From: Bolinopsis microptera
Lineage: Eukaryota; Ctenophora; Tentaculata; Lobata; Bolinopsidae
Direction: 5' to 3'
Assembly (NCBI RefSeq): GCF_026151205.1
Contig: NC_087083.1
Location: 6,364,460-6,428,459, forward strand
DNA: 64,000 nucleotides
In this document: piece by piece, positions 41,705-63,661 of the stretch
Numbering within the stretch: position 1 is the stretch's first letter
Layout: each line of letters starts with the position of its first letter
The notes under the pieces: model-generated
The model's database searches: none
Seen by the model: the letters and a program-made list of their open reading frames with translations, nothing else
Told to the model about the DNA's origin: nothing
Program-made: the position numbers and the translations under genes

Positions 41705-42872
41705 CTAAATAAATACTTGAGTCCGGTACAACATTCGTGGGGTCCGGCCATCAGGTCCCTCTACGCTTTTAGTTCCAGCTTTATGCATCACCGCTAAATT
41801 ATCCCATATCATGAGATCACCCTTCTTCCAGTAGTGTGTGTACTTCTCACTTTTCTCTGTTACTTCCCGCCATGAGTCAGTTAAGTGAGGGGCGAACCCC
41901 TGTTCAGTTATCAGAGTATGGGTCATGTAAGCGCATGTTCTTAGTTCTACCGTTCTCAGGATGGCGGTGTATGCCTCTATGTCTCTTGACTCGGGGAAAC
42001 AGTAACAAGTCTTCCTCCTTGCTTTTTATTAAATCTGGGATCTCCCAAACAGAAACTGTAAAAACGGAGTCTGAAAGATGATGCTTTATCCTTTTGGAGA
42101 GTCGTTCAAATACCTCGCAGTTGTCGAGGAACAGTGTTGTTGAACGGTTTTCTGCAACTTCGTCTGCGTACATAATACTGGCCATGTACCCATTCTGCTG
42201 AAAGTCTCCATCTTTGTGCCAGTAGCAGCCGAAACAATTTGTTTTTCCTTTCCATGTTCCATTTGACCAGTAATTCGTAGCTCTTTGAATCAACGAACTG
42301 GACTCCTACGGACCCTTCTACCCTCAGTCGGTGCTGGTGGACTATGAAATCGCTATCAGAAACGCAGTCTCCAACGTCTGGCCTGGTACTACCTTGAGAG
42401 GATGCTGGTTACGCTGAAATACGAATAATTATGCCTTTATTGCAAAGTTCAGTAGGGATCACATCAAAGTGGTTCGGTCTAGATATTAGCGGTAGTGATT
42501 CAGTCCGGTAGTGATTCAGTCCTGAAATATACCTCAATCCCTACCAATAGTGATTGGTAGGGATTCAGTCATGTAGTGATTCGGTCCGTTCACCAAGTCC
42601 ACCTGCTGTTTCCTGGTCAAGTTTTGATTCACAATAACCACAACACCGTTTTTGACCAGCTTAGATTTTATGAGGTTAACATCTTCAGTGCTAAGGCGAG
42701 TAACATCTTGAAGACCACTGGTTATTACGTAGCCCATATCTGCACTGTTTTCAACCAGCTTGCAATAAGTTTCCTCTTTCGCCGGCACAACATTTTCATT
42801 ACAGTTACTGTAAACTACGCTCATGATTAACAGTGCAGAAATAATCGCTATCATCGATTTCCTTGACCACAT
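41705..42872 (-). CDS. TauD/TfdA-family Fe(II)/2-oxoglutarate-dependent oxygenase, two exons, frameshifted
   Basis: The reading frame starts at ATG 42872 with a hydrophobic N-terminus (MIAIISALLIMSVVYSNC), which suggests a signal peptide or anchor. Exon 1 runs to about 42594 (donor gtgaac). Exon 2 resumes at 42305 after 'ccgtag', which keeps phase 0. Exon 2 has the iron-binding HxD (WHKDGDF, His at 42217-42219) in the family context 'FGCYWHKDG'. The C-terminal part has 'WKKGDLMIWDN', the distal His in 'LAVMHKAG' and the 2-oxoglutarate-binding Arg in 'RMLYRTQ'. Between HPENGRT (about 41960) and MTHTLITEQG (from 41926) the frame shifts by one step and no intron fits. This is either a real lesion or a single consensus error. 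The substrate is unknown; the family oxidises taurine, carnitine precursors and other small acids. The fold assignment is firm; activity is uncertain. Confidence 0.75.
42488..42590. repeat. Short imperfect repeats of 'gtagtgattcagtcc' in the dioxygenase intron
   Basis: 'Agtgattcagtc' or a close form occurs at least three times, together with the local inverted pair 'ctaccaatagtgattggtag'. All lie in the predicted intron. Confidence 0.6.
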
Positions 42873-43906
42873 TCTCTACCCTTATTGAATACAAATGATG
42901 TTATTTATGCTTTTTATGAGACCGATTACTTCAAAATCCAACCGCAATTTCGTGGAATATAATTTAAAAAAAGTGAAAAATTGCAACTTTTATAGTACAG
43001 CTGTTATATATGATCGTAATTGGATGACGTTAACCCATTAGGGACGAAGAGTTTTAAATTTTACCGATTTTGATGCCGTTTAACACACTAGGTCACTTCA
43101 CAGCAAAAATGAGATATGGAAAAAAGCAAATCTGTATCTCGTTTATTTTCAAAGATACAGCGATGGACAAAAACGACCTACTCGTCCGGGCTATTAGTAT
43201 TATGTTCATAAAATTAAACATAATAAAGAATAAAGATTCGGCTGAATGACAGGCTAAGCGCCGCCCAGTAACCGGGTCGCAAACGACTCATCACGCTTTT
43301 TCGGCTATCACTTCTGAACCAAAGACGTTAGGATAAAATAAAAACTGTAGCATAAGACATAGCATGCTGACGTTTATAACGTGTTACGAATGACACTACT
43401 ATTTGTCGTCCATTGTTGATGGACTAACATTGTTACTTCTTTAATTCATACTTAATTCATACTTCGAGTATCATCCATAAAAAATATTTACCACACTTAC
43501 AAATTTACGCCATTCATAGCAAAATATACGTCTACTGAGCTTGTTTACAAGATTAAAATCGGAAAGTTTGACCAATTATATCGCTAAAATCACTACAAGA
43601 TAAAATCACAAAAACTAGTATCTTACAACAATAATCTCAATCCCGTATAGTAGGCACGGGTTACTTTTATGATATTATTAAATATTACGTTTATTTACAT
43701 CATGATTTATGGGAAAAATTTCCGGTCCTATGCAAATATTTAGTTAAGGAAGCTGAATTGTACATAGTATGTACTAAATACTGTAACCAAGGACAAAAGA
43801 AAATCGCGATTATTTAGGCCAAAAATCGATAAGATAATCTATTTGCAGAGTAAAGTTAGACCTCGCCAGAACGGAACTCGATGTTCTACTTCGAATGTAT
43901 ATAGTA
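42873..43906. other. Intergenic, no gene seen
   Basis: AT-rich unique sequence between the dioxygenase 5' end and the left end of the long inverted-repeat element. No convincing frame, RNA gene or repeat was seen apart from a short doubled 'ttaattcatac' near 43441. Confidence 0.5.
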
Positions 43907-45432: not shown

Positions 45433-45507
45433 TCATATCTAGCCTAGCGGTTAGAGCATCAGCCTTCTGCGCAGAAGGTTCAGGGTTCGAATCCCAGTGT
45501 CACCTAG
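45433..45507 (+). repeat. tRNA-like head of a SINE or tRNA pseudogene
   Basis: It has an A box 'tagcctagcgg' at 45440-45450 followed by 'ttagagc', and a B box 'ggttcgaatcc' at 45484-45494: the two internal RNA polymerase III promoter elements at tRNA spacing. The anticodon loop would read TCT (Arg-like). The acceptor ends do not pair, and the D, anticodon and T stems each have a mismatch, so it is not a working tRNA. The sequence continues into unrelated DNA to about 45640, as in a SINE body. Confidence 0.6.
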
Positions 45508-51917: not shown

Positions 51918-54860
51918 ATGAACCCAGAAGAGGGATTATATTTCAACAAAAGTGGTTGCAGTATTTGCGACCCAACTGCAGGTGGTAGTTGCGAGATTGT
52001 GTGTGATGAGGTGGCAGATCTTGATGCTGGGAATAGTAAGTGTTTTCTTCAAATAATCAAGTTTCAATCTTAAAATGACCCTAACTTACGGTATCACTAA
52101 ATTCTTAAACCAAATGATGTTTTACTGATAGTAAAAGTCTTTTACAAAAACCTTGCATCTTAAATTTTCTGTAATCTCCCATAGAGACAGTCTATATAAA
52201 AAATGCGTAATTGTTCCTGAAACATTTTGATAAAATCTCCCAGGTTCATCTGGTGATGGGCGTAGTAGGATTTATAGTGAACACTCTAGCTCTCTACCTC
52301 TTCTACAAGATGGGAAAACAGAAGCCATACTACATTGTCATTGTGTTTGAAACCTTTACCGACCGTGGTGTGCCTGACGGCTCTTACAGTGCTTGTTTCT
52401 TACTCTCCGGTTAGATTCCAATATTAATATGTTGATTTTATTACTCTCCGGTTAGATTCCAATATTAATATGTTAGATTTTAATACTCTCCAGTTAGATT
52501 CCGAATATTAATATTGGTAGATTTATATACTCTCAAGGTTAGATTTCCCAATAAAATGTAGATTTTCTTTTCAGCTTTACTGTGTAGCTTTACAAAGGAT
52601 ACATATCAAATACACATCCAACTGACATTGTAAAGATCCCTAACTACCCTTAAACACGTTAAACGTTTTAAAACCGAAATTTTAACCACATATGGTAAAT
52701 TCTAAACGTTGCCGCAAAATTAAATCATCTCAGATCGACTTTAAATAGTCCACTGGTTCAGAATGAGATTTCGACACTATAATTGTATACTACAAAAAGA
52801 ACGCTGATAATTTAAATTCTTGCTCTAAAAACATGACGGAATTACAATCCAACCTCCAGGAAGAGACGACTGGTTCCAATCCCTGTCACCGCTGTGTTGA
52901 GATAGCAGAATGGTATGGAACTGGAACATGGTCATCACACCCCTCCTCCTCAGTGTAGCTGGACTGATGAGGCTACATGCTGTCTACTATCCGCACAGTG
53001 CTTCCTTGACAGGAACAGTAGACTGGTTAGTACTGAGTTAACTTACTTATACAGGTCGTTCTGACTTCTGAAGGTTGTACACTGTACACTGTACACTGCA
53101 CTGTACACTGCACTACATTGTACAGTGTACACTGTACACTGTACACTGTACACTGTACACTGTACACTGTACACTGTACACTGTACACTGACAACCTTCA
53201 GACTGTACAGTATACAGTATATGGCTCCTAAACGTTATATTTATACGCTATTTAATTTACAAACTGAATCCTTTGCGTTGCAAAACATTACGAATGAATT
53301 GGTACGGTCTGAGATTGTTGAATAACATTATTTCAGGTGGTTGGACTTTGTGTTATCGCATATATCTACGGAGTTGCTTACGCTTTCTTTCCGTACTACT
53401 TCGACAATTTCAAATACGAATTCAAAAATGTGTAAGTCAATTTCTGATTTCTAGAACAAATCTTATTTCGTGATATTACTGACTTTGACCAATCACTATT
53501 AGCATTGTAGTAATATCATTATTATTATTCCCAATTCTAATACATTATGCTTGTTTACAACGACTGTTTGATGAAAATCATAATTCTCTCCAGTCGAAGT
53601 AACTGTGACTTTGTACTCGATGCAGAGGGAGATAATGCTGAAGAGATCGGATCATTATATTTTGCACTGATGGGGCCTATTCCAATGTTTCTGTCCCTCC
53701 TTCTTATCATAGTTACCAACTCAGTTATTGTCATCTATATTATGAAGCGTTATAAGGTAATTAATATGGATTTATGTTTTTCTTGGATAATCTTAAAGTG
53801 GTTGCTTTGAATGTCTGATGTCAAATCTAAAAAGCTATCATGTTTCAGTATAGGTAGTTAAGTATTTTAGTTTAATCATACATCTGATTCGTGTACCCAG
53901 TTGCTTTTATAAATTTATGATCTGGTTAAAATTGTGCAGTCGTCATGGAATCGAAAAAAGTCCAGAAAGTCCAGAAAGCAAGGTAGCTTTGGAAGCTTCA
54001 TTATAAATATGGACCAGAAAGTTCAAAGCAAGCAAGTTGTAAGTTAAATTAATAATTTATCTACCAATTTGTACTGTACAATGTACAATTATTATGTACA
54101 ATGGATTCAAATTATCATATAAAACGACTGTAAAAAATACTGGTAACTAGGCACCATTTTTTAAAGGAAATTTTTAAAATTTCAAACTGATATGGTGCAA
54201 GTAACTTAACAATACAATTTCAGATAGTATCACTATTGATGATGACCGGATGGTACATGATGTGTTACTCTATCATTATATTCTGTAACTTCAAGAATTT
54301 CTTTAGCTACTGGAGAGCATACTAACACTGACATCGGAGTGGTGAGCTATATCTTTTTAATAATATACTCTTTAATAAATACATGTTACATTGTATATAT
54401 TATAATACAATAAACTACTCATTACTAGTTTATTGTAAGACTGCACAGGATATGCAATATATTTCAGTTTTTACAATGCAGTTCACTTTTGGTTTTAACT
54501 TTCGAATATGAATGTCAAAATCTGAAGAATATTTTAAGCAGTACAACTACAAGAACCTTATAATATAATCTTTATCATATCCGTAAATAACAAAACCTGT
54601 TTCAGACTGAACAAAGCTCCACCTATTTCTACGCTACCTACAACTTCTTAGCCTACCTCAACTCGTTTGTAAACCCCTTTATTCTATTAACGACGGGGAG
54701 TAGCTTTAGACAGGAACTCGGCAGACTTTCTCTCAGAATTAGAAATAAATGTGGTCTGATCAGTCATAAAGAATCCAGAGCAGCAAGCCTACAAGACACT
54801 AATAATGCAACGCTGAGGAGGACAAGCTTGCCTCTGATTCAGGAACAAGGGGAAATTTAG
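51918..54860 (+). CDS. Class A (7TM) G-protein-coupled receptor-like gene, multi-exon, with reading-frame lesions
   Basis: A short N-terminus (51918-52035) has an NKSG glycosylation site and several Cys. TM1 is in an exon from 52244 (VVGFIVNTLALYLFYK, with the conserved Asn). The TM3 end and loop 2 lie in about 52910-53017 (LLLSVAGLMRLHAVYYPH, MRL in place of DRY). TM4 is 53337-53431 (GLCVIAYIYGVAYAFF), TM5 53594-53756 (LSLLLIIVTNSVIVIYIM), a basic loop 3 at 53940-54038, TM6 54224 onward, and TM7 plus tail 54606-54860 (YLNSFVNPFIL, an NPxxY variant). Exons 4 to 7 join in phase with GT-AG ends. TM2 appears only in a shifted frame after 'KPYYIVIV', the first exon does not join TM1 in phase, and a TAA at 54323-54325 cuts loop 3 before TM7. 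It is a degrading gene or one with consensus errors. The ligand is unknown. Confidence 0.7.
52400..52567. repeat. 42-44-bp tandem repeat, four copies, overlapping the end of the TM2 exon
   Basis: 'Tactctccggttagattcca' plus an AT-rich remainder is repeated from 52400, 52441, 52484 and 52528 with growing divergence. The first copy contains the stop of the TM1/TM2 exon frame, so the repeat may have arisen by duplication across the exon edge. Confidence 0.85.
53068..53201. repeat. Heptamer (gtacact)n microsatellite flanked by an 11-bp inverted repeat
   Basis: About 110 bases of repeated 'gtacact' are bounded by 'ctgaaggttgt' (53068-53078) and its exact inverse 'acaaccttcag' (53191-53201). The tract lies in the receptor intron between the TM3 and TM4 exons and could extrude as a hairpin. 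Confidence 0.85.
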
Positions 54861-54889: not shown

Positions 54890-55946
54890 TAATCAAGCTC
54901 AACCAACATCATACCAGAGCTTCAACCAAATTATACCACTTAATAACACATTAGACCAACCTCAACCAATTAACAATTCAACACATTATACCAGCTCAAC
55001 ATATTAATTACCAGCTCACCACATTAGACCAGCTCAACCACATTAGACCAGCTCAACCAAATTAGACCAATTCAACCAAATTAGACCAACTTAACCACAT
55101 CAGACCAGCTCAACCATATTAGACCAGCCCAACCAAGATGATACAGCATAATATAACACATCAGACCAGCTCAACCATATTAGACCAGCTCAACCACATC
55201 AGACCAGCTCAACCACATTAGACCAACTCAACCACATAAGACAGCTCAACCACATTAGACCAATTCAACCACATTAGACCAACTCAACCACATTAGACTA
55301 GCTCAACCACATTAGACCAGCTCAACCACATAAGACCAGCTCAACCACATATGACCAGCTCACCACATATAATCAACTCAACCACATTAGACCACTCAAA
55401 CCACAATTAACCAGCACAGATCAACCACCTAAAACAGCTCAACCACATAAGACCAGCTCAACCACATAAGACCAACTCAACCACATTATATCAACTCAAC
55501 CACATTAGACCAGCTCAACCACATTATATCAACTCAACCACATTAGACCAACTCAACCACATTATACCAGCTCAACCATATTATACCAGCTCAACCACAT
55601 TAGACCAGCTCAACCACATTAAACCAGCTCAACCACATTATACCAGCTCAACCACATTAGACCAACTCAACCACATTAGACCAGCTCAACCAAATTATAC
55701 CAACTCAACCACATTATACCAGCTCAACCACATTAGACCAACTCAACCACATTAGACCAACTCAACCACATTAGACCAACTCAACCACATGATATCAACT
55801 CAACCACATTAGACCAACTCAACCACATTAGACCAATTCAACCACATTATATCAACTCAACCACATTAGACCAACTTAACCACATTAGACCAATTCAACC
55901 ACATTAGACCAACTCAACCACATTAGACCAACTCAACCACATTATA
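54890..55946. repeat. 19-bp minisatellite, about 55 copies, directly after the receptor stop codon
   Basis: The unit 'ccagctcaaccacattaga' recurs with variants (ccaactcaacc, ttatatcaactc, acataagacc) over about 1.05 kb. The period of 19 is not a multiple of three, so it is not a protein repeat. It begins within 40 bases of the TAG at 54858, so it would be in the 3' UTR or just beyond. Confidence 0.9.
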
Positions 55947-57140: not shown

Positions 57141-58520
57141 TCAAAGACTCGAGTCATTTATTTTGGGCGGAACCCTTGGAGTACCGTTTATATCAGGGGA
57201 TGTTGTGTTTCTTATGGGAGAAAGAGCAAGAACGGTGTCTTGCTTGTTAAAAGTATTGGAGAAAGTAGTTTCCTCTCTGGCGACACTCTTGTTAGCCAGG
57301 ACGCTACTCATCACTGACAGGCTGGTGTGACCCCGAGTAAGAGCTGCTGAAGATTTCCTGTAGGCCCCATGCATGGACTTCTTGAAGTAGGTATTCATAT
57401 TTTGGCCTCTTGCCAGGAAGATGCAAGGGTTGATCCCAGAGTTGGCAATGCTTAGTCCTGATGTGAGAAGGTAGAGAACAAAGCATGCCCATCGCATACC
57501 AATTGGGCTCTCAATGATGCGATCAGCAATCGTGTAGTCAGCTACTCCTTTGAGGGCGGAGAGAGAGATTGCAAGCCTGGGAGTGAAACAAATGAGAGTG
57601 GAGACGGTAGTCTAAAGGATTGTGATAGCACCATCTCAACTTGATTAGCAATGTAGATTTCATAGCGGGATAAGATGAGTTATGAGCGTGATGTTAGGGA
57701 TGTGATGGTGAATTGGAATTACAGGAATGTTACATGTGACAATCCTCTCCATCCACGATCAGTAAGCCCAGTTGTCGAAGTTTTCAATTTCAGTGACTCA
57801 TTCCAGTGTGCTTATGAATTCATATTGCCCTATGCGAGTAAGGGCACGATGGTGTAAGGACATGTTCCACTGCAGACGAAAACAGGGTATAAGCAGAGCA
57901 CGAACAGAGGGAACGAGGTAGCAGAGTAGAGCTAGAAGACCAACTTTTTGTGTTTCTTCTGAAGGTGTGAGACGACGGAGAGACATCGACACCAACTCCA
58001 TCACCATGAACAGGAACATTAGAAAAACGTATCAACAGGAAGTTACCTTTAATTCAAAATATTAGCGTCTCTAAATTTCATTAATTGGGCCTTTCCGATT
58101 ACTCAAACATCGAAACAATAGTTGTGTTTCTTAAGTTTAGGAATGCTATGTGACAAGCTAACTTACCATGTGAAAAAATTCTAAAAAATATACCAATAAC
58201 ACTAGTTTTAAATAAAGAAGTCCCAAAGCCTGGGATATTTTTAGTGGCACATTATAATAATCAAACACTACCTCAAGATTGAAAGGGCAGAAATAACACT
58301 GAAAACAGTAAAGTAATGGGTTAGAAGTGAAGAAGTTGACAGCCTGAACGTTTTATCAGCATTTTGGAGGAGGGGTCCAAGAGTGAGAACCGATTCCAAT
58401 CCACGACAACAGAGTGCAATAAAGAGAATAGTCGTGATTATCTTTTCTCTGTTTCTTGATGAAGAAGAAGAGTCCCGAAGCTGGTTAGCGAAGATTATCC
58501 CAACCACAGTGAAAATGAAG
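57141..58520 (-). pseudogene. Class A (7TM) receptor-like pseudogene
   Basis: Read on the minus strand, exon A (about 58520-58272) gives the end of TM1, TM2 (IITTILFIALCCRGLESVL) and TM3 (LLTHYFTVFSVISALSIL). It joins in phase at 57995 to 'SWCRCLSVVSHLQKKHKK', which occupies the DRY position as CRC. That frame stops at TAG 57932-57934, while TM4 (KVGLLALLCYLVPSVRALLI) continues in the next frame. A TM5-like stretch is interrupted by TAA at 57719-57721 and 57680-57682. The last exon, 57611-57141, is open and gives TM6 (TLICFTPRLAISLSAL), TM7 (LSIANSGINPCIF, an NPxxY variant) and a Ser/Thr-rich tail of about 95 residues. No start codon or 5' exon was found. Three independent lesions favour a pseudogene, with the caveat that the last exon is intact. 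It converges on the plus-strand receptor. Confidence 0.65.
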
Positions 58521-58765
58521 TTTTAAACCACCAACAAATTTTTTATCCGAAACATGTTTTTATGGGTAAGGTAACACGGGCACTATAGTACGATTTTTCT
58601 GTCACATCTTTAAACGCCGATCATCTTAATTTATGAAGTTGAAGGTGCTGGAATTGGGATACTGTTCCGGCATCGAGCGTCACGTGAGTTCTGACGTCAC
58701 AACTCACGTGACGTCATGTGTCTAGGACTCAATAAAGAGTAGTTCTATAAACCCACCGTCCCCAG
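58521..58765. other. Spacer between the receptor pseudogene and the sphingosine kinase exons
   Basis: 245 bases holding the perfect CACGTG/TGACGTCA palindrome listed separately. No upstream sphingosine kinase exon is visible here. Confidence 0.5.
58678..58713. promoter_or_regulatory. 13-bp inverted repeat of E-boxes around a TGACGTCA core
   Basis: Arms 'cgtcacgtgagtt' and 'aactcacgtgacg' are perfect inverses, and the 10-base centre is 'ctgacgtcac'. It combines two CACGTG boxes and one CRE and lies about 50 bases before the first recognisable sphingosine kinase exon. Confidence 0.5.
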
Positions 58766-61700
58766 GGAAATATTAGACCCTAATTTCGACTTCACGGCTC
58801 TTAACGACGTGGATTCAGATTCGGACGGAGACTCGCAAGATATCGACTCTAAAATACCGGACCGGAGTCGTGTTGTTTCGGAGTCTGTTACTTTACAGGT
58901 TTGTTGGTGAATAAATGTGGAGGGGGGGGGGGGGGGGGGTGGGGGGGGGGCAATGTATTGGTATTTGGTCGCTGGGGTTCTGAGACAATACCAGTCTACA
59001 TCGATGTTTGATTTGTCATTCTATACCAACAGTCGGAAATCATTAAAATGTGATATGTAAGATATCGCTAGCGGCTTACCTAGAGCAGTTCCCACTTAAT
59101 CATTACTAATAATTAACTAATTAATGATTAACTTATTACTAATTATAGGAATCTTCTGACACGTGTCAGTGTAAGAAATGTGTCCCAGTACCTGAACTTG
59201 ATCCCGTAGCTCTTCAACAAATAACTGATAGTATCGAGAATATTGGGCTGAACAGTGATATACCGGACTCTTGGAAATTGGTGAGATATTGTTTTCTTTC
59301 TTGGTTCAAATTGTATTGATAAATTGGCAGGAGATCATTATTAGCTAACTTGGTCTCCAATTGTGATGCGTTTTTCGTACCTAATGTTTACAGAGGATGT
59401 TGGGCATTTGATCTACATTTTCTGTCGTGAAATTATGAGAAGCTTGAATAAAATTGATGGAAATATTCTAGCAACTCCCAAAACACAGCTCACTAACAAC
59501 TATTATAAGAGGGGTTCTTGAAACATATTTATAAACATATTTATAAATGATACATCAAGTGATGTCACATTTTAACACCTTTTAACACATTTTAACACAT
59601 TTTCACTAACAACTCTTTTACTCCCAGATAGATGGTAAATTCTCAACCATAATGGCGTTCAAGTTAACCCACCTTGCTCTAAAGTTTCAGTGTGCCAAGA
59701 AAATGAAACTAGACTGCGGTTTTGTGCACCTAATGCACTCCCAGGGCCGCTCCAAAAAGGTATGATGACGTCACGTGAGTTGACATCACGTGACGTCACA
59801 ATTCACGTGACGCCACGTGTTTCACGCTCACTCACTCACATTTCCCCGCAGTTAGAGGGAAAGTTCTCCTCGGTAAACGCGTTTTCTCGGACCCACCTGA
59901 CTTCCTCAATCCAAGTTACGGAGCTGGATATGCCGTTAGATTGTGGATATTTGTGGTTTATGTGGTCGGATAGTAATAACGAAGGTTACAATAGACAGGT
60001 GGGATGAAGCATTGAACGCAGGGTGTCCAGGGACATCTTATTTTCAAAATAACCTGGACACCCTGAGTGTGTCATTGTTTTTACAAAGCATGAAAAATGG
60101 GATTTGTGCGAGTTTGAAATAAAGCGTTTTGACTTTTGAGTGAAATCAACTCCGGTTTGTGTCAAAGCATCACGGATTTAATTGAAACGGGATTGGTTCA
60201 AAGCACAACAAATGTTATGTTCGCTGGTTTTATTACAAAGTAAGCATTATTACAAAGTTACCATTATTAAAAAGTAAGCATTATTTCAAAGAGCAAAGTA
60301 AGCATTATTACAAAGTAACCATTATTACAAAGTAACCATTATTACAAATTAAACATTGACGATCAGTTATTTAATATATATAATCACGGAACTTCAGCCA
60401 ACAAAGCGGCAAAGCCCCCCTTGTTTATTCTGAGAGTTAGTGTCTGCTGAAGTGTGAGCTGAAATGTCAGTTTTGTGTTCTGCACACTAAAAATGTGGGA
60501 TTGAATGTTCGGTGTATGACTTGTGAGTAATGGGTATGTAGATTGTGGGATTAGGACCTGAAATGTGTGTTATTAGTGATCTCAGCATTTGAATGTGAGC
60601 TTTTGTGATCACAATCACTCCTCACTCTTCAGCGCCAAAACGAAATTGTGGTCTATGAATATTGGTTCTAACAGTTTTATGGGATTGTGCATCCGATCTC
60701 CTATCGGTTGAAATTTCGCTTTCTTCGAAGGACAATGCACAAAGCACAGTGCACATTGCACAATTTAATGCACTTGATCTATTCCTCTGTTTATCGAATT
60801 TAAAAAACTCATTTGTATAAGGTCTTTATCATCACATCGTTTTTATCATCTTCCCTAAAGCACCCAAATATTTGTAAGTTATTTAGTTTTTGATGCGTTA
60901 ACCTCTACAAACCTATATTTTAAAAACCGTATTTTAAATTTTTTTTATTATCTTCAGGATTTTTACCAACTGTTGGTGAATAACTGCACTCCTGAATGTA
61001 ACGAAACAAGGACCATTCACTTTGAAAAGGTAGAGAGTTTATCATTGATTTCAAATTGTGGATATCTCTCGATATTCGTGAAATATCATTATTTTTACAG
61101 TATTTCTAATATCAATCAATTTATCATCCAAAAGTTTGTACTAAGAGTTCTAGCATCAAAAATAGCAATAAATGTAGCATATTACTGGTACTAGAATTAA
61201 GTACCAAAAACCACCCCTGGGTGTATAATGTATACTTATAGTTTATACTGTATGCATGCTGTACTGCATGCAAACATCTCCCTTCAGATCATTTTATTAA
61301 TCCTGTTTTTACTTCTAGAGCCCCCACTTGTTAATTATAGTTAATTATACTGGAATGATTCTTCGGAATTTCGCTGGATTGTACAACTTTCGTCTTGGTA
61401 GATTCCAAACACAAGGAAATTTTCCTTCTGGTTGGTAATATACTCAATGATGGAAGTATAGTGTATTGGCTATGCCCCGCTTACTAGTTTAGCTCTTTCT
61501 AGTCCCCTGCTACACGGCATGTAAACAGGGATTGGCTAGTTAGAGGCGGTCCGTGTAGGCCTTACACTGTGCTTTCAGCAATACTCATAGTTAATTATAG
61601 TTAATTATAGTTAATTATAGTTAATTATAGTTAATTATAGTTAATTATAGTTAATTATAGTTAATTATAGTTAATTATAATTAATTATAGTTATCCAGCG

Positions 61701-61882
61701 TCCCACTCAGTATTTATCTCACTACATTCTCTCTTCAGGTAAGAGCGTTCAGGCTCGAACCAGAACTCTCGGAATCAGGAGCGTACGTTACTATTGACGG
61801 TGAACTGGTACCGTACGAACCGCTACACGCCTGTATATTCAAGGGCATCGCTCGAGTCATCTGCTTACCATTAATGGATTAA
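58766..61882 (+). CDS. Sphingosine kinase, C-terminal half, six exons with a duplicated exon pair
   Basis: Exons: 58766-58898, 59149-59280, 59628-59759 (A), 59852-59998 (B), 60958-61029 and 61739-61882 (TAA). Internal junctions are GT-AG and phase 0; the first exon enters after 'ccccag' with one leftover base. The end is diagnostic: 'VRAFRLEPELSESG', then 'TIDGELVPYEP', as in the lipid-kinase C-terminal lobe of sphingosine kinases. Upstream, 'IPDSWKL' followed by 'GFVHLMHSQG' matches the family's 'SHW...GVMHLFY' region. The first two exons encode the variable acidic loop (DVDSDSDGDSQDID) and a CQCKKC motif. The enzyme phosphorylates sphingosine to sphingosine-1-phosphate at membranes. The ATP-binding GGDG-type N-terminal half is not found in the window; the minus-strand receptor pseudogene lies where it would be expected. 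Product length from these exons is 203 residues with exon A, or 208 with B. Identification is firm; completeness is not. Confidence 0.85.
58921..58950. repeat. Poly-G tract in a sphingosine kinase intron
   Basis: About 29 G residues with one T. It may be real, but G runs also appear as probable artefacts in the array, so its length is unreliable. Confidence 0.6.
59628..59759 (+). other. Sphingosine kinase alternative exon A (44 codons)
   Basis: Phase-0 exon from 'cccag' to 'gtatga'. It shares with exon B the residues GKFS at positions 3-6, AF at 10-11, THL at 14-16 and MxLDCG near position 26. Its 'GFVHLMHSQG' is closer to known family members than exon B, so A is the likelier ancestral form. 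Confidence 0.8.
59767..59797. other. 12-bp palindrome in the 92-base intron between alternative exons A and B
   Basis: Arms 'gacgtcacgtga' and 'tcacgtgacgtc' are perfect inverses around a 7-base loop. In RNA this would form a strong hairpin eight bases after the exon A donor; in DNA it is a doubled CRE/E-box site. Confidence 0.75.
59852..59998 (+). other. Sphingosine kinase alternative exon B (49 codons)
   Basis: Phase-0 exon from 'ccgcag' to 'gtggga', paralogous to exon A with a 5-residue longer variable centre. Either exon alone joins exon 2 to exon 5 without a frame change. It keeps the LDCG motif but replaces 'FVHLMHSQG' with 'YLWFMWSDS', so isoforms would differ in this part of the lipid-binding lobe. 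Confidence 0.8.
60019..60065. other. 13-bp inverted repeat just downstream of exon B
   Basis: Arms 'cagggtgtccagg' and 'cctggacaccctg' are perfect inverses separated by 21 bases, starting 21 bases after the exon B donor. It could form an RNA hairpin in the intron. Confidence 0.75.
60231..60350. repeat. 17-bp tandem repeat (attacaaagtaaccatt), about 7 imperfect copies
   Basis: The copies alternate 'aagcatt' and 'aaccatt' endings, with one insertion of 'agagc'. It lies in the sphingosine kinase intron between exon B and the next exon. Confidence 0.85.
61588..61693. repeat. 10-bp tandem repeat (agttaattat), about 10 copies
   Basis: Perfect decamers except one a for g near the end. Two isolated copies of the same word lie about 260 bases upstream (near 61331). 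It is in the last sphingosine kinase intron. Confidence 0.9.
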
Positions 61883-61899
61883 GAGACTTTGTTGTGGGA

Positions 61900-61999
61900 G
61901 GTCACGTGGTATGGTGTGTGACGTCACGTGATATGGTGTGTGACGTCACGTGATATGGTGTGTGACGTCACGTGATATGGTTTGTGACGTCACGTGACA
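61900..61999. repeat. 22-bp minisatellite of fused CRE/E-box (gtgacgtcacgtgatatg), four to five copies
   Basis: Each unit contains TGACGTCA overlapping TCACGTGA. It begins 18 bases after the sphingosine kinase stop codon. The same compound motif occurs in the exon A/B intron and before the first recognised exon. Confidence 0.9.
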
Positions 62000-62477
62000 T
62001 TGAGTGTGTTTCACTTGATTCTGATAGTGATATATTATTGCGTTTATACGTTGTTCACTTGTATTATAATATGTAGTTAAATGTGGACACTTTGTTTATG
62101 AAAGCTTTTTACAACAGTTTGGTAGCTCAGCTTTAAATTTATAAGTTCGTACTACGAACTTCGTAGTCGCATAATACTATTAACAGCATTATTGATAAAG
62201 AGAAATTGATTTTTTAGGGTTTCCAAATATTGGAAAAATTGTACTGTTTTGAAGTAATAAGATGATAATATGTACATAACGATTTTTTTGTAATTGATTA
62301 ATTAATCAAAAATTTAATAGTCTTGAATAAAAAGTAACGAGATAAAATTCATTGTGACAGAAAGTTAATTATCAAAATTTGACATTGCCAAGACTAGTTT
62401 TATTTAATAATATTACTATAATTACTAATATTCAATAATGGTAATCTTTCTTCGCTCTTATGAGTGGGTCGATCATA

Positions 62478-62817: not shown

Positions 62818-63169
62818 GGCACTACATTTTTCAAGAATTTCTATTTTCTAGAATTTCAACCTCCTAGATTTTCCTACACTTTCTGGATTACAACTTTATT
62901 TGTTGTTTCACTTAATAGTAATACGAATATGTGGTATAATTTGTAACTGTAGTGTGATTGTTAAGAAGATTATATTCGTACGCATTGTCATATTTTGTCA
63001 GATCAAGAGTTTCAATTTTTAATCAAGAGTTTTCAATAATTAATTAATTTTCATAACACATGTAATTGTAAACAATAAACATTCTGGTTAAATTAATTTT
63101 TGACTTCACAGTAATATAACTAAAATCATCTGTTATAAAACAAGAAATGCGGCCACTTTTCTTTTGTGG

Positions 63170-63658
63170 ATGGGCGCCACTATAGCTCCAGAGGTGGACG
63201 AGGTTGTCGTGGTAAATGTTGTTCAGATCGCTGAGATGGGCGCCTATGTCAAACTACTTGAATACGATGGACAGAAAGGTATGATCCTCATGTCTGAGTT
63301 CTCGAGAAAGCGTATCAGGTCTATAAACAAGTTGGTGAGAGTGGGAAGGAACGAGTGTGTCCTGGTGACCAGAGTGGACCAAGATAAGGGGTATATTGAT
63401 CTCTCCAAGAGACGAGTCGTACAGGAGGATATTAAGAGGTGCGAAGAAAAGTACTCTAAAGCTAAAACAGTTAACCAGATCTTGAGACATGTTGGGGAGC
63501 TGCTAGATTATGAGGATGATAAAATGTTAGAGGAGCTGTACAAGAAGACCGCGTGATGCTTTGACAAGAAATACCCCACAAGTGGAAGATCACACGAGAT
63601 GTTCAAAGAAGCCGCTCAAAAACCTGAGGTCCTCGATAAGCTGGATATTGATTTGATT
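63170..63658 (+). pseudogene. eIF2-alpha-like (translation initiation factor 2 subunit alpha) coding block with in-frame TGA
   Basis: From '[11 protein letters not shown]' the frame follows the S1 domain of eIF2-alpha: '[13 protein letters not shown]', '[20 protein letters not shown]', '[13 protein letters not shown]', '[11 protein letters not shown]' and '[13 protein letters not shown]'. The stress-kinase target Ser is kept (TCG at 63302-63304, before RKR). At 63554-63556 a TGA stands where the family has an invariant-looking Trp (T-A-W-V-F-D). The same frame continues in good agreement for 34 codons ('FDKKY', then 'MFKEAAQKPEVLDKLDID') to a second TGA at 63659. The C-terminal two thirds of the protein are absent. 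The start is uncertain: ATG 63170, or a splice acceptor at 'ctatag' (63185). There are no introns in 480 bases. It may be a truncated retrocopy or a gene fragment. The family role is to bring initiator tRNA to the ribosome. Confidence 0.75.
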
Positions 63659-63661
63659 TGA

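Follow-up and report, generated by a model that had tools for sequence, protein, structure and literature searches.

An exon of a sphingosine-kinase-like C-terminal domain in Bolinopsis microptera appears to have been duplicated in tandem, giving two neighbouring exons that are termed A and B here; the sequence supports this duplication well. Of the readings considered, mutually exclusive splicing of the pair is the likeliest inference, and the chances are judged to be about even that a transcript carries A or B and not both. The analysis covers 64 kb of genomic DNA, the whole of which is called the window, and only the C-terminal part of the kinase seems to be recognisable in it.

Gene model and reading frame

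The exons of the model are as follows.

58766-58898, forward strand: exon 1 (predicted), encoding an acidic linker, with an open frame ending CAG/gtttgt
59149-59280, forward strand: exon 2, 132 nt, phase 0-0, from the linker to the ..DIPDSWKL motif, which precedes the lipid-binding core, with GT-AG borders
59628-59759, forward strand: exon A, 132 nt, phase 0-0, stop-free, with borders ..tcccag/ATAG and AAG/gtatga
59852-59998, forward strand: exon B, 147 nt, phase 0-0, stop-free, with borders ..cccgcag/TTAG and CAG/gtggga
60958-61029, forward strand: exon 5, 72 nt, phase 0-0
61739-61882, forward strand: exon 6 with the stop codon, carrying the AFRLEP..DGEL block common with human SPHK1

The five introns of the model are of the GT-AG type, and GT or AG is found at 11 of 11 exon borders. 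The initial annotation had claimed that A and B are phase-0 exons and that each can by itself link exon 2 with exon 5, and this is borne out by the GT-AG borders, the stop-free exons and the in-frame products. Phase-0 symmetry is not peculiar to A and B, being found at both ends of exons 2 and 5 as well. The frame is kept, with one stop at the very end, in each of the forms 1-2-A-5-6, 1-2-B-5-6, 1-2-A-B-5-6 and 1-2-5-6, so the sequence gives no proof of exclusion. The tandem duplication proposed earlier therefore stands, whereas the mutually exclusive use proposed with it is an interpretation, the frame being kept also with both exons in or both out.

That all four combinations are in frame would also suit independently regulated cassette exons, with A, B, both or neither included in varying mixtures. 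This is considered highly improbable, in that a product with neither exon would lose part of the lipid pocket and one with both would have a disturbed domain. Exclusive use of A or B is favoured on the grounds that each supplies the same piece of one domain and that the intron between them is the shortest of the five.

The exon pair

A and B are paralogous, as the initial annotation had it. Their translated sequences are identical at 17 of 44 residues (39%) and similar at 26 of 44, with an E value of 4e-12 for the single comparison (BLASTP). The Smith-Waterman score is 83 against a shuffle mean of 17.2 (z 19.9), and none of 2000 shuffles was as good. LDCG, THL and GKFS are motifs common to both, and exon B differs from A by a one-residue insertion and a longer loop ahead of the splice to exon 5. 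When A and B are used as tblastn queries against the whole window they find each other reciprocally (E about 3e-7 and 4e-7); no third copy of the exon was found in the 64 kb, the next matches having E values of at least 0.47. The two exons are thus adjacent, homologous, of like length and in the same phase, as tandem duplicated exons are.

The differences between A and B are unevenly spread over the codon. Among 43 codons, 24 first, 12 second and 27 third positions differ, the second position being the most conserved, with fewer differences than the third (Fisher p 0.002) and the first (p 0.016); the alignment was made at the protein level, which biases this test toward conserved second positions. 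In a simulation in which one copy drifts freely and the other is frozen (n = 2000 per divergence level), drift to 49% divergence gave no run of 2000 with second-position change so low, and 162 of 2000 were stop-free. At 28% divergence, 1157 of 2000 runs agreed with the observed second-position count, and 356 of 2000 contained no stop. The codon pattern fits protein-level selection on both copies, without proving it.

Likeness to sphingosine kinases

Compared with the C-terminus of human SPHK1, A-5-6 scores 57 and B-5-6 scores 45, and in each case 0 of 2000 shuffles were as good. Exons 5-6 without A or B reach the same 45 (2 of 2000 shuffles as good), and exon B alone is at chance level, with a score of 24 that 318 of 2000 shuffles attain; the B form therefore owes its likeness to SPHK1 to exon 6 only. 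Exon A alone scores 37 (9 of 2000 shuffles as good). It corresponds to human SPHK1 residues 254-297 and aligns without gaps over 254-291. Exon B has a Trp where human SPHK1 has His286. With a provisional SPHK2 C-terminus, z values are 19.5 for A-5-6, 16.5 for B-5-6 and 13.8 for exons 5-6, and both A and B contribute, 0 of 2000 shuffles being as good for A alone and 4 of 2000 for B alone.

The joined exons gave no match in PDB (phmmer), Pfam or NCBIfam. The assignment is thus pairwise and remote, resting on the pairwise comparison and the AFRLEP..DGEL block. The name sphingosine kinase given in the initial annotation is upheld for the C-terminal lipid-binding domain, where likeness with the AFRLEP..DGE block was found (in the B form only exon 6 aligns), and it does not extend to the catalytic domain, which was not found in the 64 kb. 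A pattern search for an orthologous pair returned 0 A-form matches in viral contigs and 32 B-form matches in prokaryote contigs, none of them confirmed, neither collection consisting of animal genomes.

These scores bear on a further reading, in which only one of the exons is used, more likely A as the closer to vertebrate kinases, and the other a leftover of the duplication event, skipped or included at noise level. The chance-level score of B against SPHK1 beside that of A speaks for it, as do the inserted residue, the longer loop and the Trp in B. Set against this, B has an open frame of 49 codons between canonical splice borders, the LDCG, THL and GKFS motifs are common to both exons, B alone matches the provisional SPHK2 C-terminus, and the second codon positions are conserved to a degree that drift did not reproduce at 49%, though it often did at 28%. 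Use of one exon only is rated quite unlikely.

The lipid pocket and the swapped segment

The C-terminal domain of sphingosine kinase is described as a beta-sandwich core with three lipid-binding loops, and the lipid site as a J-shaped cavity in which loops are packed on the beta-sandwich (PMC8135045). The match of exon A, SPHK1 254-297, is part of the wall of this lipid-binding J-channel. A docking study lists 25 SK1 residues around the inhibitor PF-543 (PMC10599685), and 7 of these 25 contacts fall within the swapped segment. They are L259, L261, L268, M272, A274, F288 and V290 in SK1, and the residues in A and B are, in the same order, T/S, M/N, L/L, F/I, C/V, M/M and S/S. Of the seven docking-listed pocket contacts, four therefore differ between A and B.

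One of three residues by which the pockets of SphK1 and SphK2 are said to differ is Met358, in the long numbering (PMC11859825). It would be equivalent to Met272 by a constant offset of 86, taken from other residues. A difference in lipid preference between the A and B forms is plausible from the position of the swapped segment, with its seven pocket contacts and four differences.

The catalytic half

The ATP-binding DAGK_cat domain has the motifs SGDG, PxGSGN and WGxxAD. The patterns P.G[STA][GAS]N and WG..[AS][DE] have no occurrence in six frames of the 64 kb. GDG is found 10 times in six frames, none with kinase-like flanks as judged by eye; 3 of the 10 are preceded by G, A or S (forward strand, 46755, 52249 and 57597). 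GSGN is present once (minus strand, 13634), and strings of the NPxxG and YRG types are present three times each in the window, all without kinase-like context. With a provisional N-terminal half of human SPHK1 as query, tblastn gave 11 rows at E up to 50 in the 64 kb, the best having an E of 3.4. The N-terminal DAGK_cat domain of sphingosine kinases was thus not found within the window and may lie outside it. Either the rest of the gene is more than 58 kb to the left, or the locus arose by partial copying or by an assembly join.

The most serious rival to mutually exclusive splicing is that the locus represents a C-terminal fragment, formed by partial copying, translocation or assembly mis-joining, and not a complete kinase, in which case the choice of exon would have no enzymatic meaning. 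The tblastn and motif scans for the N-terminal half are in keeping with a fragment. Exon 1 is entered in phase 2 and no in-frame ATG was seen in its translation; the phase-2 entry calls for an upstream exon, and none was found. Two neighbours also look broken, an eIF2-alpha-like sequence with an in-frame stop and a TauD-like gene that apparently needs a frame change. On the other side, the form 1-2-A-B-5-6 has 252 codons without an internal stop, where the chance of 254 random stop-free codons is ~1e-8; the splice dinucleotides are intact at every exon border; and the upstream half could sit past the left end of the window. On balance a fragment is regarded as unlikely.

Neighbouring sequences

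Several other elements are present in the window.

63104-63661, forward strand: eIF2-alpha match without visible introns (PDB 1kl9, E 5.7e-48, 122 residues), followed by an in-frame TGA
41705-42875, minus strand: TauD-like dioxygenase frames, where by eye a frame change between 42025 and 41904 seems to be needed for homology
57141-57611, minus strand: GPCR-like fragment (NSGINPCIF, by eye; no Pfam match), on the opposite strand and just upstream of the kinase model
54591-54857: weak 7TM match (PF10323, E 0.0083; PF00001, E 0.053; both below the curated cut-off)
54896-55944, forward strand: 19-nt tandem repeat of about 55 copies, directly after the weak 7TM match
45440-45497, forward strand: marginal Rfam tRNA match of 29.5 bits (gathering score 29; E 0.045), where ARAGORN calls none

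The open frame behind the TGA at 63104-63661 resembles eIF2-alpha as well, we presume, and the stretch is probably a processed pseudogene. The element at 45440-45497 is perhaps a tRNA-derived repeat.

The intron between A and B

The intron that separates the two exons displays two hairpins.

59760-59851, forward strand: A-B intron, 92 nt, the shortest of five (the others are 250, 347, 959 and 709 nt)
59766-59798, forward strand: perfect 13-bp hairpin with a 7-nt loop, starting at the 7th intron base after the exon A donor
59804-59819, forward strand: second hairpin, 6 bp

The computed folding energy of the intron is -30.7 kcal/mol (z -3.05), and 1 of 200 shuffles was as good. The 13-bp stem has a pair probability of 0.59-0.66 when the intron is folded by itself, against 0.93-0.998 within a 441-nt context. 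Perfect stems of at least 12 bp with loops of 3-15 nt are found at 7 places in the window, two of which are in the kinase-like gene; such stems give 13 rows in the window against 4 rows in total in 10 Markov-chain sequences of the same length.

Four candidate branch points, chosen by eye as yUnAy, are located 64-78 nt from the exon A donor in linear distance and 14-28 steps from it through the helices of the predicted fold. A steric limit for the distance between donor and branch point has been proposed near 50 nt (PMC7969005). Since the linear distances exceed this limit, exclusion would depend on the hairpins forming and on the shortening of the path counting as modelled.

A length of 92 nt is enough for many functional animal introns. 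Together with the preserved frame, this speaks for a reading in which transcripts always carry A and B and the segment is repeated in tandem in the protein. This reading is nevertheless held to be very unlikely: a second copy of the SPHK1 254-297 segment would have no obvious place in the beta-sandwich fold.

Two other devices of exclusion were rejected. U12-type donors read ATATCC or GTATCC, and as no donor of this type is present in the model, incompatibility of U2 and U12 splice sites was dismissed. Removal of the double form by nonsense-mediated decay was likewise dismissed, A and B together being in frame.

The palindromic element

The hairpins of the A-B intron belong to a palindromic element that is repeated in and around the gene.

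58677-58721, 59765-59820 and 61893-62008, forward strand: the ACGTCACGTGA element at three places, before exon 1, in the A-B intron and behind the stop codon
58678-58713, forward strand: perfect 13-bp hairpin before exon 1, formed by an element of the CACGTGACGTCA type as in the A-B intron
61893-62008, forward strand: 22-nt tandem repeat of the palindromic element, immediately following the stop codon

With at most one mismatch, ACGTCACGTGA is found 13 times in the window, where 0.53 matches are expected; 11 of the 13, including all 7 exact copies, are within 58677-62000. An 18-nt part of the upstream element (58700-58717) is exactly complementary to 59765-59782, and the complementarity of the A-B intron element with the post-stop repeats extends over 34 nt (76%). 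Computed duplex energies are -71.5 kcal/mol for the upstream element with the intron, -90.4 for the intron with the repeats and -75.7 for the upstream element with the repeats. The intron element could thus bind one of these distant copies in place of forming its own hairpins, which counts against exclusion by the hairpins.

Pairing of the docking-selector kind was set aside, though not disproved. A and B would not be kept apart by either long-range pairing, and in the minimum-energy fold computed for the 3,361-nt model transcript the local hairpins persist at the positions examined. The element combines CACGTG and TGACGTCA cores, which we take to be known types of transcription-factor sites. 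Its copies could equally be sites that act at the DNA level or a spreading repeat.

Proposed use of the pair

The reading preferred here is that A or B, and never both, enters the transcript, which would give two versions of the C-terminal domain with different sphingosine-channel walls. The short, hairpin-folded intron would bring the exon A donor too near the exon B branch point for A and B to be joined, and regulation would then set whether A or B joins exon 2 to exon 5. The weakest step is the last, that the two forms might prefer different long-chain bases or bind membranes differently. Taken as a whole, the proposal is tentative and rather doubtful in its entirety: a single gene would provide two enzymes with different lipid channels by exon swapping, where vertebrates have the separate genes SPHK1 and SPHK2, and the choice would be imposed by the 92-nt intron, which is shortened by hairpins and made up of a palindromic element that has its exact copies, within the window, in this gene only.

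Comparison with known systems

Tandemly duplicated exons are found in about 10% of animal genes, by a 2002 survey quoted in PMC9013439. Of 6,541 human candidate exons, 1,399 were confirmed to be mutually exclusive by one junction read or more, and many others were left undecided (PMC5740500). In the sphingosine kinase literature on splicing and exon duplication, a pair of the A/B type was not found among the matches listed, one of which, PMC8640068, proved to be unrelated. The probable mutually exclusive pair is thus ordinary in kind, and its occurrence in a sphingosine-kinase lipid pocket appears to be new.

With human SPHK1 and SPHK2 (the latter in a provisional sequence), the locus shares the C-terminal domain from the W..GDF/EDF segment via HL to AFRLEP..DGE. 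The two pocket types of vertebrates come from separate genes, whereas here two exons are found in one gene; the human enzymes also differ from this locus in that its catalytic half is absent from the window.

Two known arrangements resemble the proposed exclusion. OGDH exons 4a and 4b are a duplicated pair between which lies an intron whose branch points are too close to the donor of the first exon (PMC7969005). The branch points there are mapped, at 25-41 nt from the donor, whereas the by-eye candidates here are more distant and the path is shortened only by predicted hairpins. Dscam-type clusters with competing structures likewise have tandem duplicated exons and complementary intronic elements (PMC6071210), but here no pairing of docking and selector sequences that is specific to A and B was found, the elements being placed before exon 1, between the two exons and after the stop.

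Helminth coq-2 exons 6a and 6e are also two alternative internal exons in one metabolic enzyme, where the swap alters the substrate tunnel and the product, and mutually exclusive use was found by RNA sequencing (PMC7434440). That enzyme is a prenyltransferase, its exons are of equal length at 134 nt, not a multiple of three, and transcripts and lipids were measured, whereas the A/B pair is known from sequence alone. If the exclusive use of A and B is confirmed, the specificity of a signalling-lipid enzyme would be set by splicing, in parallel to coq-2, and comparing the natural A and B forms would reveal the J-channel residues on which lipid preference depends.
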